Part shown: in pieces, positions 39,007 to 45,969 of the stretch
How the letters are laid out: each line of letters opens with the position of its first letter
How positions within the stretch are numbered: the stretch's first letter is position 1
Origin: Hypoxylon rubiginosum
Taxonomy: Eukaryota > Ascomycota > Sordariomycetes > Xylariales > Hypoxylaceae
Length of the DNA: 64,000 nucleotides
Reading direction: 5' to 3'
Assembly (NCBI GenBank): GCA_902806565.1
Contig: CADCXA010000003.1
Location: 62,001-126,000, forward strand
The notes under the pieces: model-generated
Databases searched by the model: none
Seen by the model: the letters and a program-made list of their open reading frames with translations, nothing else
Told to the model about the DNA's origin: nothing
Translations under genes and position numbers: made by a program

Positions 39007-39015
39007 CGCCTTTTC
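39007..39015. repeat. 9-bp target site duplication, left copy
   Basis: CGCCTTTTC directly precedes the left TIR and is repeated exactly at 45961-45969. A 9-bp duplication is the classic signature of Mutator-superfamily integration. Confidence 0.92.
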
Positions 39016-39228
39016 GGGGATACAGCTCAGCCGACCATTGACCCGCTTTGGACCTGACCATAGCCCCATTTATTTGTATGTGGCGGGGTGCCGACCACTG
39101 ACCATTGGGATCTGACCTGACCATGGCCCCATGGTCAATCTTGGCATTTATTAATAGAGTACTCAATAACCCCTCCATATCCAATTAACCACTTTCACTC
39201 TAGTGGCTCCATTTATATAAGCCAATTA
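39016..39228 (+). repeat. left terminal inverted repeat (213 bp)
   Basis: Matches the right TIR in inverted orientation with no indels and six mismatches, four of them clustered at about 39063-39070. The outer part holds GACCATTGACCCGCTT at 39033-39048 and a degenerate second copy at 39056-39071. It also carries one GAGTACTC box at about 39157. Confidence 0.92.
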
Positions 39229-39441
39229 CGTAGCTAGGTGAGCATTTATTAGAATATCACCACCACAAATCTATTAGAATACCACCACCACATATCACGA
39301 AATTTACCTCCTTTTACCTACCTACTTAACAAAACGTTTTGCTTATATCGATCTGCTTGATGAGCACTCATCGACTACTTATTAGGCTTTGCGGTGAGTT
39401 CACCGATGGCAGGACCAAGTAAGATGTAGTGATGGGTACGA

Positions 39442-39477
39442 TTGACCGCCGACTTGACCGCCGATTTGACCGCCAAA
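39442..39477 (+). repeat. 12-bp direct repeat, 3 copies, near the transposase 5' end
   Basis: Three head-to-tail copies of TTGACCGCCGAY, about 120 bp upstream of the transposase ATG. The core TTGACC also occurs within the TIRs (ATTGACCCGC), so these may be further protein-binding sites for a transposon protein. Confidence 0.65.
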
Positions 39478-39593
39478 GCGCAGGAGTTTACTATGGAATA
39501 GTTAATGAGTACTCAATAAGCAATCAATTATTAAACCAGCGTGAGTCCTCACATTTACCTATACATCGCGCTCATCAATACGAGAATCTAACA

Positions 39594-42500
39594 ATGGCTC
39601 AACCCCACCAGATTATTCGACCTAACTATGCTGAAGACATACCAGATGGTAAGCTTCAACTTAGATACTGGCGACGAGTTGAGGTATACTCATTAATTGT
39701 TTATAGATTATCGAGTTGAGGCACCTGCTCTCCCAAAACCATGGACAGATGCCTTACTCGATCTCACGACTCGGGCTGATATTGGTCGGCGTGAGTACTC
39801 GATGACTAACTCAACAACTATTCGGAATCAAGCAATGCCGACGAATAGTGAGGATATGAACAACCCGATAGGGCACCCCGATTCCATCGAGCTCTCCTTA
39901 AGCACTCCGCGATTAGTGTCAAGTGGTAGACGATTAATTGACGGTACATTGGTGCATCAAAATACTGCCACCTACGTTCGTCACGTTTATGCAGTTTCAA
40001 CGCTTCCGGCCTATCCAAGGACTGACCCAGATGGAGTGCTTTATATATGCCCTATTGGAGTACTCAATGAAGCCGTTCAAAATGCGCCCTGGGAGGACGT
40101 AAGTGATCCTGTATAGTGGTTAAGAAGTACTCATTGAGTACTCAGCTAATTTCCGTCTTCTAGATGCAATATTCGACATACCAGAAACACCCAGCGAAGG
40201 CTGGGACAACCGACCTATTAAACGATGCCGCCGTGATACGTTATACACGTCAATGTAGTGGTATTAAGATCTGTCCACATCTACACCCAAACATTCGCGA
40301 TCTCCATCACACACGTATCCCCGAAGATGACTCCTTTTGGAGTATGCCTGCGAGGATTAATCGAGCACGCGAGAAGCACTCGGCTTTGTTCGAGGCAGTT
40401 GCCTTTGCACGGGGAGCACTCAAAGCTTTCGATGTGCCTAAGCCATGTCACAGGACCTTGAAGCCTGAATTCTTTCCTGGTGACAGGTGGAATGAAATGA
40501 CAATGCAAGGGTATGTCGAGTGTGTGTTGGGTCACGGGCAAATGGCGGGCGACAATGTAAGTACTCGCAAACTACCTATTGAGTACTTATTAACCTCTTC
40601 ACTAGTATCCTGACGGATCGCCGAGGAAATTCTTGCAATGCGCGAATCATGGGATGGAAGAGTATGCGCACTTTTCTCGACATGTCCCTGCCCGTTTAAT
40701 GGAACACTGGACTGTGATTAAGCGCATAGTTGAGCAATGGGACTGGGAGGATATCATCCAAGATAATCCCGAACTTCGAGAGTTTGCTCGGGATATGGGT
40801 GAGTATTGTGGGACAATTGCTGGGACGTCTGGGAGGGGTAAACTGTGCAGTAAGTTTAGGGAGTACTTCATGAGTACTCTTTAAGGACTCACTAACATCT
40901 CGTCAGACACATTTCACACCGTTGATACTCCTCCGCAACTAATACCTCTCAAATGTGATGTGATATTCAAATGGCATATCCCATGCGACCGCAAGAAATA
41001 CCCATGGTTTTTTCTTTCGATCCATGGTGAGCATAAACACCCCCCGCCCACTCCAAATCGTGAACCTAAGAGCTTGGTACGGCGGTTTATTCAGTATATT
41101 CGCAAGTCGGGCGATCGTGATGGATCCCTCGGTAGGTCACGAAGCTCTAAACAACTACTTTTTGAGTACATATTAATTGTATTAGGGACTTTTCTCAGGA
41201 GCGAGGCGTGTCAGGAGTTCCTGAGAGAGTTTAATAGTCAAACGTTCGCCGAGATTCACCCCTATTTTACTAACGATGATGCCTTACGTCGTATCATTCG
41301 CCAGGAACGGGCTATACATTATCCTCTAGGTTCTTCGCGCCTCGCCTTGCGGTATGAATGGGAATTGAATCACAAGGACAGCGAAAACAAGGTAAGTACT
41401 CGATGAACTCTCGGTTAGTACTCTATTGCTAAGTTGATTATTTGCTCCGCAGTATATTCAATTCTTCCACGATGATAACACGAATTTCATGGTTATTTTG
41501 TTCTATGTCGAGCAACTTTTACTCTTGTTTCAGACTCCAGATATCTCACTCCAAGTAGATATGAATTTCAAGCACCTCATAGGTGGCCAGTTCGAGATAA
41601 TTTGGGCTTTTTACGATGAAGTATCGCGAAGATGTGAGTTCCCCATTTGCCCCTCCACGAGTAGTCTCTGAGTACTCAATGAGTACTTATCAAAGATTAA
41701 CCGTTCTATAGCCGAGGTAACACTCCGAGTAATCACAAACTCGCAGAGCCCTGATATGTACTTCTTCATGTTTCAGAATGTCTTTTCAACTGTTCACTCT
41801 GCCACTGGTAGAGAGATTCAATTAAAGCATCTCCACGGAACTGGTATTCTCGGGTTTACGTTCGATATGGAATGGGGCATTTTTCAAGGTCAGTTGCGAC
41901 TAGCTACTCTATAAGTACTCATTGAGTACTTAATAAGTACTAATTGTATATAGCATGGGGACACTTCGTATCGCAGCATCTGGACCCAGAACGCCGTGGA
42001 TGGCTCTATCATCACAAACGCTCCGTTCGTTTCTGCAGAGTTCATTACGAGAGAAATGTGAGAAAGCTGCTAGGGGAGTATACGCCGAGATTCCAGAATT
42101 CCATATACGATATCCTCATCCACTTACCTGAAGCCAAGACGGAGTCTGATTATCACGGTACTTGCGAAAAGATAATTTGTGAGTACTCATAGAGTTCTTA
42201 ATAAGTACTAAGCATACACTAATACTACTTCAGCTGAGGACACATTAACCAGTAACTACCCTGGGATAATCCCCTGGGTTAAACATAAGAGAATTCCTGA
42301 AATCGCATCAGGGCTCGCGAGGTGTTGTTCCGATATCGACGAAGCCGACTGGCATGCGATGTCTAGAAGTACGAACGCGGTAGAATCGCTCCATCATGCT
42401 AGTTATCATGCTAGTGGCAGGTATAAGCCGGTATTTGTAGTTGTTCAGGTTAACGCCGAATATGATGCTCGTCGTATCCAACAAGCCGATATATATCAGC

Positions 42501-43060
42501 GGTACGGCATTCGGTACGGTCAAAGGAATCATTCATTGGATACACGATGGAGCAATGCCATTAAAGCGCAAAGTAAGTGCCCCTAATTTTGATGGAATAC
42601 TCCATAAGTATTGAATAAGTACTTGCAGAGTACTAATTTGCAGTACAGTGAAAAGAACTACCCGTCAGCGACAATCAAGTGACGAACGAAAAGCCAGGAA
42701 GCAAATAATTAGATCCTCGCCGCTTTCCGATGCCTCTGGGAGTACTCAACGATCCCTTAGTGTCCCGAGGACGCCCACTCCACGTCGAACATTGAGTCCT
42801 GTCCATAGCACGCCTGGGTCCGGGCGTAGAGGAGGTCGAAGTCGCAGGTAAGTTATTATGAGTACTTAATGAGTACTCGAAGAGTATATATCGAGCACTT
42901 ACTGATACCTCTCAGTTCCATGGCAAGAGACGCGACAAGCAATGCCTATGATGAAGTCCTTGCTCGTCAAGAGCGGGAGCTTGAGCTTGAGGAGAGGAGA
43001 CTGCGGCTGGATCAGGCTAGGTATGATCTTGAACAGAGACGGAGGGCGGAGGGTATTTGA
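39594..43060 (+). CDS. MULE transposase (926 aa, 12 exons)
   Basis: Exons: 39594-39648, 39707-40098, 40164-40556, 40606-40849, 40907-41131, 41186-41391, 41453-41633, 41712-41888, 41954-42178, 42234-42572, 42649-42847, 42916-43060 (2781 nt, no stop). The N-terminal half has a Cys-containing domain (C180, C186 in QCSGIKICPHLHPNIRDLHH) and a WRKY-GCM1-like zinc-binding block (C378, C388, then HGEHKHPP with H401/404/406) expected to bind the TIRs. The catalytic core follows the Mutator pattern. D541 lies in LQVDMNFKHL and D617 in GFTFDMEWGIF. The diagnostic C-x2-H is in FCRVHYERNV (C652, H655) and the Glu in STNAVESLHH (E750). The C-terminus is basic and Ser-rich, then a charged coiled coil (EREL...RRLRLDQARYDLEQ). 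It should cut and rejoin the TIRs in the nucleus. An optional in-frame intron (39791-39832 or -39871) is possible in exon 2. Confidence 0.88.
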
Positions 43061-43544
43061 CTATTTTTTGTTATAGAATACTCATTAACTACTCATAGAG
43101 TACTCTATGAGTACTTAACGAGTATTTAGTTATAATGTATTGGATGCTTTATTCCGTGAACTTCCATTTTGCAAATAGGCATAGAAGTAATTAACTATAT
43201 ATGTTGAATTTGGAATTTTATTGCAATCCCTTTTATTGCTTAATTATTATGGTAATTCAATTGTAAATGCGTCAGCAAAGATAAATGAGAGTGCTTCATA
43301 TGGAAACTGGTTTTATATTCCATGAGTACTCATCAAGTACTCATCAAGTACTCGAAAGGTATTGGTCAAATTAGACTATCATAGCAATGGGTATCGTTGA
43401 ACGCGTTAAAACTGCCCTACTACCTGGATATCGTCCGTTTACTCGTAATGAAAAGAACGCCACATAAACACTTTTAAGTACTTATTGAATACTCCATGAT
43501 TAGCACATGGAGCACTCAAAACCCACTCTCCCTATTCTAGCCAC
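43061..43544. other. convergent spacer between the two transposon genes
   Basis: AT-rich spacer holding both transcript ends. It contains six AGTACT boxes, including three spaced 11 bp apart at 43325, 43336 and 43347. No gene is seen. Confidence 0.7.
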
Positions 43545-45556
43545 TTATACGTTATCCTGAAGCTGTCGCGCGGCTGCATCGTCATCGTTAGCTCCCTCCG
43601 GCGTCGTGAAACACTCGGTGGTTTCCCGTGAAGCATTTGATAAGGACTCTTCAAGTTCTCTCTTAGTAGCAGAACGAGTTTTCCTCGGCTCAGTGGACAA
43701 CGTTTTTTTCTCTACACGTCTTATTTTCATTGGGCGCGTATCGGGCTCCTGTTGTTTTTCTCCATTTAACTCGTTATTCTCGTGAGTCTCGCGATTCTCC
43801 TGCTCGTTTAGGCGCTCCTGCTCTTGTTGTAAGCGCTCTTGTTCTTGCTGTTGCCGCAGGCGCTCCTGCTCTTCTTGTTGTAAGCGCTCCTGCTCTTCTT
43901 GTTGTAAGCGCTCCTGCTCTTCTCGTTGCAGGCGTTCGTTCTCTTCTCGTTGCAGGCGTTCGTTCTCTTCTCGTTGCAGGCGTTCGTGCTCTTCTCGCTG
44001 CAGACGTTCTTGATCTTCTTGTTGCAGGCGAGTTTGTTCCTCTCGCTGCAGGCGTTCCTGCTCTTGCTGCTGCTGCTGCAGGCGCTCTTGTTCCTGCTGC
44101 TCCTGCTGCAGCAGATACTCTCGTTCTTGCTGCAGCAGGCGTTCCTGCTCCTGCTGCTGCTGCAGGCGCTCTTGTTCCTGCTGCTGGAACTCTCGTTCCT
44201 GCTGCAGCAGGGGATCATCCTCAAATAGGAACTCTTGATTTACCTCATCTTGAAGCTCAGGATGGGATATCATCTCTTGGAAGGATTGCAGCTGCATCAT
44301 TCCATGACGTTCAGTCTCTGCTTCCGTAGCTTGCTGACGTTCCGCGGCCTCGATATCCGCAATAGAGTCAAAAATCCGGGCAGAACCATCAGACAGCAGG
44401 ACAGTCTTGCTGCCAGCCCGTTGGTGACCCTGTTGAGTACTCATTGAGACACTCATTGAGGGCTCTCTTGGAAGAGTTGGCTGGTGCTCGGGTATAGATT
44501 TACTCTCCGCATCCTTGCTATCGATGGTATGGGCATGATTTGAATCGTCGTCGCTTACGTCGGTTTCATCGGGGCGGGCACGTCTCTCTCGCCTCGTCTC
44601 TAAGAACTGCATCCAAAGATGGCAGTCCGGTTTGCGTACCTCTGGACAAGCTAAACACCAGTTAGTTATTCATTGAGTACTTATCGAGTGATCACTTACA
44701 ACTCCTTCCGGCCTCGATACAGCCCTCGCAGGCCTTTTTCTTTTGTCCCGCCAGAAGCTTCATAGATTTCAGGTTAGGCTATAATAGATTAGCTCAATTT
44801 GTACTCGAAAAGTCCTTGATATATCTTACATGAGCTGCGCAGTTTTTGCGAGCCTTCGTGAAAGGAACTGACTTGAGATCCTTCTGCTTTGGGGCTTGGA
44901 GAGGCCGCGTATCAGGCCGGAATGGTGTCTTTCCCACCGAACTAGCCGCGGTGTTCGGGTTGAACTCGTCGATGTCCTTCTTCACCGAGTCCCAGTATGC
45001 TATATTGGTTCATTAGCTGATACGAGTTCTATACTGCTCGATGAGTACTTACTAATTAATACAGCATGATCATGCAGTGTCAATCCGCCATTGCGATTCT
45101 TCGCCAGTCGAATCTCCACATCATTCCCGTCGACGATGACACGATGTGACTCAACATGGCGCTTAAGGTTACTCCAATGTAATATCTTGTCCTGTTCAAA
45201 GTTAATGAGCACTTATTGAGTACCCCATAAGTGTTCATATATGACTCACCGTGCGATAGCATAACTGAATATCAGCGTCGGTGTTGTGATTCATGTTGAA
45301 TCGACAGAAGCATTCACCATTAGGAATAACGACTTGATCCGCACCCTGATATATAATGAGTACTCATCGAGTTATCAAAAAGAAATATAGAACTTACGAT
45401 CATATCGAATGGCGATACATTATCTGGTCGTGTTTCGTGAGCCTGATACCACTTGTATCCTTCCTATAAAACATAATGAGTACTCATATAGTACTTATGA
45501 AATGAATAAAAACTTACAGATTTGTGTTTGTAGGATGTAGAAGGTAATGGTGCCAT
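43545..45556 (-). CDS. transposon accessory protein of unknown function (564 aa, 7 exons)
   Basis: Exons 45518-45556, 45398-45463, 45250-45345, 45053-45191, 44830-44999, 44700-44778 and 43545-44650 join into 1695 nt without a stop. I recognise no named family. Residues 1-170 look folded (NGECFCRFNMNHNTDAD, WSNLKRHVESHRVIVDG). A cysteine cluster follows: C187-x2-C190-x7-C198-x7-C206 (CEGCIEAGRSSCPEV, then PDCHLW), which could bind zinc. Then come an acidic/Ser-rich part and, at about residues 325-490, a long coiled coil of repeated QEQERLQ / EENERLQR units encoded by imperfect 24-bp repeats. A basic segment PMKIRRVEKK lies near the C-terminus. The position opposite the transposase is that of mudrB in MuDR or the VANA/VANC genes of VANDAL elements. 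A DNA-binding, anti-silencing or transposition-helper role is inference. Confidence 0.72.
43795..44212 (-). repeat. imperfect 24-bp tandem repeats encoding a Gln/Glu coiled coil
   Basis: Within the accessory gene, repeated units of eight codons (xEEQERLQ, QEENERLQ, QQEQERLL) run for about 140 residues. Exact neighbours, such as the two EENERLQR units near 43930-43980, show that copies were duplicated recently. Copy number is likely to vary between element copies. Confidence 0.75.
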
Positions 45557-45747
45557 ATTAGTGAATAGGGCTGTGTAACTTTAGTAATTACCCAATAGAA
45601 TAAATTTTATATTAAATGCTCAATGAGTACTTATTGAGTAGTTAGTCAAATTATGGTAAAAGTATGTGTAAAGGAAAGTTTGGTATCATTTTAATTTGGG
45701 CATAGCAATTACTTTTATTGACTATTGGTCTATGCTTTTCTTGTGTA

Positions 45748-45960
45748 TAATTGGCTTATATAAATGGAGCCACTAGAGTGAAAGTGGTTAATAGGATATG
45801 GAGGGGTTATTGAGTACTCTATTAATAAATGCCAAGACTGACCATGGGGCCATGGTCAGGTCAGATCCCAATGGTCAGTGGTCGGCACCCCGCCACATAC
45901 AAATAAGCGGGTCAATGGTCAGGTCCAAAGCGGGTCAATGGTCGGCTGAGCTGTATCCCC
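45748..45960 (-). repeat. right terminal inverted repeat (213 bp)
   Basis: Inverted copy of the left TIR. Here the 16-bp segment AAGCGGGTCAATGGTC occurs twice, perfectly, at 45905-45920 and 45928-45943; in the left TIR the inner copy is degenerate. One GAGTACTC box lies at about 45812. Confidence 0.92.
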
Positions 45961-45969
45961 CGCCTTTTC
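45961..45969. repeat. 9-bp target site duplication, right copy
   Basis: CGCCTTTTC directly follows the right TIR and is identical to 39007-39015. Confidence 0.92.

Follow-up and report, generated by a model that had tools for sequence, protein, structure and literature searches.

We examined a 64,000-nucleotide stretch of the Hypoxylon rubiginosum genome (contig CADCXA010000003.1, positions 62,001 to 126,000 of the forward strand; hereafter the window, whose own coordinates are used throughout) and identified within it a 6945-bp transposon, resembling Mutator-like elements (MULEs), whose non-coding DNA is filled with arrays of a single palindromic box, AGTACT. The boxes are phased at 11 bp, are nearly confined to one transposon family, and recur in a short non-autonomous relative with a different interior. 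We interpret them as operator arrays for a dimeric DNA-binding protein, a reading to which the sequence evidence lends a probability of about three in four. The chance that the binder is the product of the element's own second gene, acting to a purpose like that of the VANC proteins of Arabidopsis VANDAL transposons, falls a little short of even.

Phased AGTACT arrays fill the non-coding DNA of the element

The element contains 38 exact AGTACT sites, starting between 39158 and 45813, compared with 17 in the remaining 57 kb of the window. Sixteen of the 38 have the extended form GAGTACTC, and every GAGTACTC site of the window lies inside the element. An earlier note on this DNA had estimated about 38 sites, some 34 of them non-coding and four coding, and both estimates proved exact. 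Under our hand-made gene models, 24 boxes fall in 949 bp of intron, 8 in 1040 bp of spacer, 2 in 426 bp of terminal inverted repeat (TIR) and 4 in 4530 bp of coding sequence, against first-order Markov expectations of 1.6, 0.41, 0.05 and 0.63, respectively. Each box in coding sequence has the full form GAGTACTC (four, with 0.06 expected); GTG precedes that at 39794, which could sit in an unmodelled intron. AGTACT is also the most frequent six-base word of the element's non-coding DNA (34 occurrences), followed by GAGTAC (23), GTACTC (20) and TGAGTA (20), all of which overlap it, while the seven other six-base palindromes counted in element copies reached maxima of 9 (CTGCAG) and 8 (GATATC).

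Exact boxes no more than 80 bp apart are separated by 11 bp (11 pairs), 22 bp (5), 67 bp (1) or 78 bp (1). When 34 boxes were placed at random in the non-coding DNA, 0.43 pairs were expected at 11 bp, with a maximum of 5 in 20,000 trials, which bears out the frequent 11-bp pairing described in the earlier note; the triplets it had placed at 41914/41925/41936 and 43325/43336/43347 were likewise found there. The phasing extends to degenerate units: non-box sites match AGTACT at offsets of -11/+11 (3.15 and 3.30 of 6 positions), -22/+22 (2.45 and 2.42) and -33/+33 (2.24 and 2.18), against a mean of 1.47 of 6 (standard deviation 0.38) at other offsets, with no excess at 44 or 55; offsets -3 (2.58) and -14 (2.21) also score high. 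Given these decayed copies at 11-bp steps, the boxes belong to arrays that each comprise a few 11-bp units, with the consensus TTAATGAGTACTCATTGA containing a perfect 14-bp palindrome, AATGAGTACTCATT. The element comprises 24 such arrays at a mean gap of 289 bp, and in an exploratory comparison their spacing was more even than random (coefficient of variation 0.64 vs 0.96, P 0.015). The single long gap between boxes, 43477-44436, takes in the repeat region of the second gene.

The limits of the element, its genes and the boxes are as follows (a strand is given where one applies).

39007..39015: left target-site duplication CGCCTTTTC, 9 bp
39016..45960: whole element, 6945 bp, defined by TIRs, target-site duplication and seven full genome copies
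39016..39228, plus strand: left TIR, 213 bp, with one GAGTACTC at 39157
39594..43060, plus strand: transposase-like gene, 944 aa, 10 introns, D559-D635-C670xxH673-E768 by eye (hand-spliced model)
43545..45556, minus strand: second gene, 564 aa, 6 introns, with N-terminal C2H2-like C49, C64, H79 and H83, then a Cys-rich stretch and long Q/E/R-rich repeats (hand-spliced model)
43808..44215, minus strand: tandem repeats of a 24-bp (8-residue) unit within the second gene; the region is extended by 48 bp in 4 of the 7 copies
45748..45960, minus strand: right TIR, 97% complementary to the left TIR, with one GAGTACTC at 45812
45961..45969: right target-site duplication CGCCTTTTC, 9 bp

39158..39163: left TIR box
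39508..39513: 5' spacer box
39794..39799: coding box (GAGTACTC) of the model
40059..40064: coding box (GAGTACTC)
40126..40142: 11-bp pair, intron 40099-40163
40560..40587: 22-bp pair, intron 40557-40605, first box over the 5' splice site
40862..40878: 11-bp pair, intron 40850-40906
41395..41422: 22-bp pair, intron 41392-41452
41671..41687: 11-bp pair, intron 41634-41711
41914..41941: triplet, intron 41889-41953
42182..42209: 22-bp pair with decayed middle unit, intron 42179-42233
42618..42634: 11-bp pair, intron 42573-42648, decayed units upstream
42741..42746: coding box (GAGTACTC)
42861..42877: 11-bp pair, intron 42848-42915
43099..43115: spacer pair, decayed units on either side
43325..43352: spacer triplet
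43477..43482: spacer box
44436..44441: coding box (GAGTACTC)
44676..44681: box, intron 44651-44699
45044..45049: box, intron 45000-45052, over the 5' splice site
45192..45249, minus strand: intron without an exact box; by eye, three decayed units in 11-bp register
45359..45364: box, intron 45346-45397
45479..45495: 11-bp pair, intron 45464-45517
45626..45631: spacer box upstream of the second gene
45813..45818: right TIR box

The span of 39158..45818 given in the earlier note thus holds for the boxes, while the element itself runs from 39016 to 45960, with the termini GGGGATACAGC and GCTGTATCCCC. Seven full copies were found in the genome (48.27 Mb, 70 contigs), every base of which is identical except for one 48-bp insertion/deletion; target-site duplications are 9 bp in five and 8 bp in two of the seven (9 bp in four and 8 bp in two of the six copies outside the window). 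Given this near-identity, the family appears to have moved recently.

The concentration of boxes in introns raises the possibility that the box is an intron signal in which, in a fungus whose introns are short, the 5' splice site (GTRAGT-ACT) is fused with the branch site (TACTAAY). Box density peaks in introns, an exact box occurs in 13 of the 16 modelled introns and a decayed one, by eye, in the remaining three; boxes overlap the 5' splice site in 4 of the 16, and 3 of the 38 read AGTACTAA. Nevertheless, 14 of the 38 boxes are not intronic, the site is palindromic, and the remainder of the genome shows no enrichment of GAGTACTC. Moreover, the arrays recur in a short element (see below) in which no gene was recognised, no in-depth search having been made. 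We therefore regard a splicing signal as hardly credible. Sites that are both palindromic and phased typically belong to dimeric regulators, and under the operator reading a dimeric sequence-specific protein would bind AATGAGTACTCATT on successive turns of the DNA and so coat the element at about two dozen sites, spaced roughly 290 bp from one another.

Distribution of the arrays across the genome and in short relatives

With the reversed word as control, AGTACT pairs at 11 bp number 91 in the genome (control 2), compared with 1 at 10 bp (control 7) and 5 at 12 bp (control 12); the full GAGTACTC occurs twice at 10 bp nowhere in the genome. By count, 77 of the 91 pairs lie in the seven full copies (11 each), 11 in arrays of a short family (3 on C19, 2 on C21 and 3 in each of two arrays on C37) and 3 elsewhere, comprising lone pairs on C32 and C34 among the matches listed and one more outside them. 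AGTRCT triples at 11 bp occur 29 times in forward and 25 times in reverse orientation (control 0), and among the matches listed all belong to this family, except for two overlapping matches near position 1633480 of C6 and a single match on C9. The 48.27 Mb contain 503 instances of GAGTACTC itself and 451 of its reversed word; 112 of the former fall in the seven full copies (16 each). The 391 left are thus not enriched over the control; per base, the word is about 280 times as frequent inside the element as elsewhere in the genome. The earlier note had named an equal box frequency in other AT-rich introns of this genome as a refutation; across the genome the box is not common. At one of five places in the genome matching the MULE transposase family PF10551 (L096), 4 kb contained one AGTACT and no array.

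These distributions bear on whether a host transcription factor binds the arrays, which would then serve the element as internal enhancers. Their palindromic and phased arrangement would suit such a regulator, and the GAGTACTC sites outside full copies leave room for a host factor to exist. Those sites are, however, no commoner than the control, and at most 3 of the 91 phased pairs lie outside the family; furthermore, an enhancer would have no need to fill the majority of introns in the two genes, or to occur in an element where no gene was recognised. We consider a host factor rather unlikely.

Also identified were similar arrangements in public viral contigs, where three boxes at 11 bp occur in 28 stretches, mostly with other flanks. 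A microvirus-like contig, so judged by its frames (L075:2327-2367), and a phage-like contig (L076:5059-5108) carry arrays of four and five AGTACT units, respectively, at exactly 11 bp. Both arrays sit between listed frames, with units mostly of the form GAGTACTC or AAGTACTC; they are probably operator or iteron arrays that are alike by convergence.

A search of the genome with the TIR returned at least 41 matches, including elements of about 1 kb. At one of these matches (L061, G000:C66:841225-841448) two outer TIR pieces adjoin head to tail, as a nested or tandem end. Six complete members of a short family, 967-1023 bp in length, were extracted: three are unmutated (L058, L059 and L060) and three altered by repeat-induced point mutation (RIP; L062, L063 and L064). 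Target-site duplications are 9 bp in the unmutated members and about 8 bp in the mutated ones, two of the latter with one mismatch (by eye). The unmutated copies and the full element align (BLAST, word size 7) in the outermost 116-123 bp at either end and in two box arrays; the other alignments among the matches listed are 12-16 bp long, at E 0.25 or worse. The arrays, at about 615-700 and 812-856 of L058 and about 590-663 and 777-821 of the 979 bp of L059, consist of six or seven units and then about four, all at 11-bp steps and some decayed. They keep their place and register in the RIP-mutated copies. Like miniature inverted-repeat transposable elements and other non-autonomous derivatives, the short family thus carries the ends and target-site duplications of the full element; unlike them, its interior is not seen as a deletion of the full element, and beyond the ends only the arrays match. 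That a short element with a different interior bears the same arrays is the strongest indication of a function in cis, and argues against splicing, coding and pure slippage as their cause. On C19, a fragment of the short family (L065, about 2240-2305) starts at the box array without an end beyond it, as if broken in the array (by eye).

Neutral 11-bp slippage without function would account for some features of the arrays: units are gained or lost in steps of 11 bp, as L058 has exactly one unit more than L059 and L060, which are mutually identical, and many units are decayed. Slippage extends a single array, though, and would not seed one unit at 24 places, in most introns and, as the full word, four times in coding sequence; nor would it place arrays in a short family of other sequence. 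A simple tandem-repeat origin, which the earlier note had named as a possible refutation, leaves the 24 separate arrays of one unit unexplained, and we judge it improbable.

The short family also bears on the possibility that the arrays are internal sites of the transposase itself, serving synapsis, copy-number sensing or self-repression. Full and short elements both carry the arrays and, given their shared ends and 8-9-bp target-site duplications, were presumably moved by the same transposase; in addition, one box lies in each TIR of the full element. Yet the short family moved although its TIR homology ends before the TIR box, at about 142 bp, and the arrays are spread over the interior of the full element and lopsided in the short one. 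A better candidate for transposase recognition is offered by the outer TIR, where TGACC occurs five times in about 107 bp on the left (39016-39135) and GGTCA six times on the right (45840-45960). These repeats, candidate transposase sites distinct from the AGTACT boxes, together with the missing TIR box of the short family, indicate that the arrays are separate from transposase recognition, and we hold a transposase role for them to be unlikely. TGACC is also present three times at 12-bp spacing at 39443-39471.

The two genes and a candidate binding protein

MULEs are characterized by target-site duplications of 8-10 bp, mostly 9, by long TIRs in many cases, and by a D-D-E arrangement with CxxH between the second D and the E. 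The element likewise has 8-9-bp duplications and 213-bp TIRs. In the 944-aa protein a candidate D-D-(CxxH)-E layout, formed by D559, D635, C670xxH673 and E768, was placed by eye against the Pfam-recognised MULE at L096. It differs in having no PF10551 match, none of the five places found in the genome scan lying within it, and in its 10 modelled introns, compared with an uninterrupted 621-aa frame in L096. The 944-aa model matched no Pfam family over cut-off, its core giving only PF19031 at 15.3 of 23.7 bits. Pfam matches below cut-off (PF03590, PF20215, PF09827 and PF19031) were taken as chance, as was the best match from a comparison by sequence with solved structures, between the transposase and cyclophilin (E 0.027), which yielded nothing useful. 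No Pfam match over cut-off thus stands behind the name MULE used in the earlier note, and we call the element MULE-like.

The second gene encodes the most likely binder of the arrays. The N-terminal part of its product has two diverged relatives in the genome besides RIP relics, on C50 (E 6.5e-11) and C53 (E 0.006), and an alignment of the three revealed the common motifs RPxN, PF, E.FC, LC, SNL.RH and HR. C2H2 zinc fingers conserve two Cys and two His around a helix of the form SxLxRHxxxH. Here C49, C64, H79 and H83 are invariant in all three sequences, and we read the N-terminus as a C2H2-like finger whose spacing is unlike that of the classic finger. The putative finger is followed by a Cys-rich stretch (KKACEGCIEAGRSSC) and then by a long, probably helical repeat region, whose 8-residue units are rich in Q, E, R and L and which differs by two units between element copies. 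As a palindromic site needs a dimer, this repeat region could supply dimerisation of the protein.

The C50 relative (L094:909-1283) is a 124-aa frame from ATG, and that on C53 (L095:397-672, minus strand) a frame of 91 aa from TTG, perhaps a broken gene. Neither frame has a Pfam match, and both are possible host or domesticated relatives.

RIP and the parallel with VANC

In PMC5735166, VANC21 is described as binding YAGTATTAY, a motif dense in the introns, intergenic and terminal DNA of VANDAL21. The target motifs of VANC proteins are tandem repeats whose units are gained and lost between copies, the proteins themselves have variable tandem peptide repeats, and VANC6 acts also on AT9TSD1, an unrelated element bearing its motif (PMC5735166). 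Set against this source, the parallel with VANC is closer than the earlier note had claimed, in non-coding targets, in tandem gain and loss, and in variable peptide repeats. At the level of sequence, and like VANDAL21 and VANDAL6 (PMC5735166), the present element combines a transposase with an accessory gene, and its motif is likewise concentrated in non-coding DNA as tandem arrays; the 24-bp repeats of its accessory gene vary by two units, and the array of the short family by one 11-bp unit. The motif is also present in a short element of other interior, much as AT9TSD1 bears that of VANC6. Differences are that the host is a fungus and not a plant, that the site is palindromic and phased, and that the second protein has C2H2-like residues instead of a match to DUF1985 or DUF287. 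The element would at most work like a VANC system and not be a member of one.

Several results weigh against the second protein as binder and against a protective purpose. Both gene models, spliced by hand from GT..AG introns and open frames, are putative. The second protein has no Pfam match (residues 1-342 up to E 5, last exon up to E 1), so that its finger is identified from conserved residues, and its C50 and C53 relatives have no box in the surrounding 2.0 and 1.2 kb. The near-identity of the seven intact copies leaves no independent conservation test of the boxes. Two further full copies (L052, G000:C8:453310-460207, and L053, on C18) have been destroyed by RIP, and a protein search with the transposase found stop-riddled matches at four more places (C6, C19, C25 and C31). 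Nor were the boxes protected from RIP in L052 and L053, where 62 and 66 of 76 were hit, compared with 168 and 180 of 221 other sites in ACT context. Since boxes were hit at the rate of same-context sites, the arrays kept RIP away from neither the element nor their own sequence.

The extent of this damage is considerable. RIP-type changes number 2739 in L052 and 2755 in L053, whereas the 6.9 kb contain 6 and 8 transversions, respectively. About 88-89% of all G:C pairs have changed (95-97% in CpA, 82-91% in other contexts), and the stretches analysed have a G+C content of 9 and 11%. Their outer TIR ends are less changed. Evidently the defence struck this very element repeatedly, while seven copies stay untouched; any protection must be incomplete, and the intact copies may have been protected or may have arisen after the last sexual cycle, the sequence fitting either. 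As diverged copies for a conservation test, L052 and L053 were set aside because they represent the same sequence after RIP, and L055 and L057 because their similarity to the element is limited to roughly the right-hand 1.2 kb; L054 and L056, stretches from beyond an end, were left out, and a 13% transversion rate for L055 was discarded as a product of forced alignment outside the related part.

Binding of GAGTACTC by a protein, as the earlier note had proposed, is well, if indirectly, supported by the palindrome, the 11-bp phasing and the arrays of the short family, while kinship of the second protein with VANC was not found by Pfam. Were the second protein the binder, with its C2H2-like finger and repeat region, its most likely purpose would be to mark members of the family, the short elements among them, as belonging to it, and to keep their chromatin open, allowing expression and movement. 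We propose only tentatively a convergent form of anti-silencing, in which a zinc-finger protein of a fungal transposon would recognise a phased 14-bp palindrome in the introns of both genes, and short elements that acquired or kept the arrays would share the protection.

Sequence-specific anti-silencing by transposons has been described from Arabidopsis VANDALs, together with the question whether other kingdoms have conserved part of the host machinery (PMC5735166). If the proposal is true, the present family would represent a second, convergent origin of transposon self-recognition, in a genome whose RIP relics show a strong opposing defence. A fungal case with a phased palindrome, a candidate binder and a cis-only element of about 1 kb with two arrays would make the idea directly testable in another kingdom, and would lead one to ask how a system of this kind copes when it encounters RIP. 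Even with another binder, the element would provide an unusually clean case of one operator filling the non-coding DNA of a transposon.

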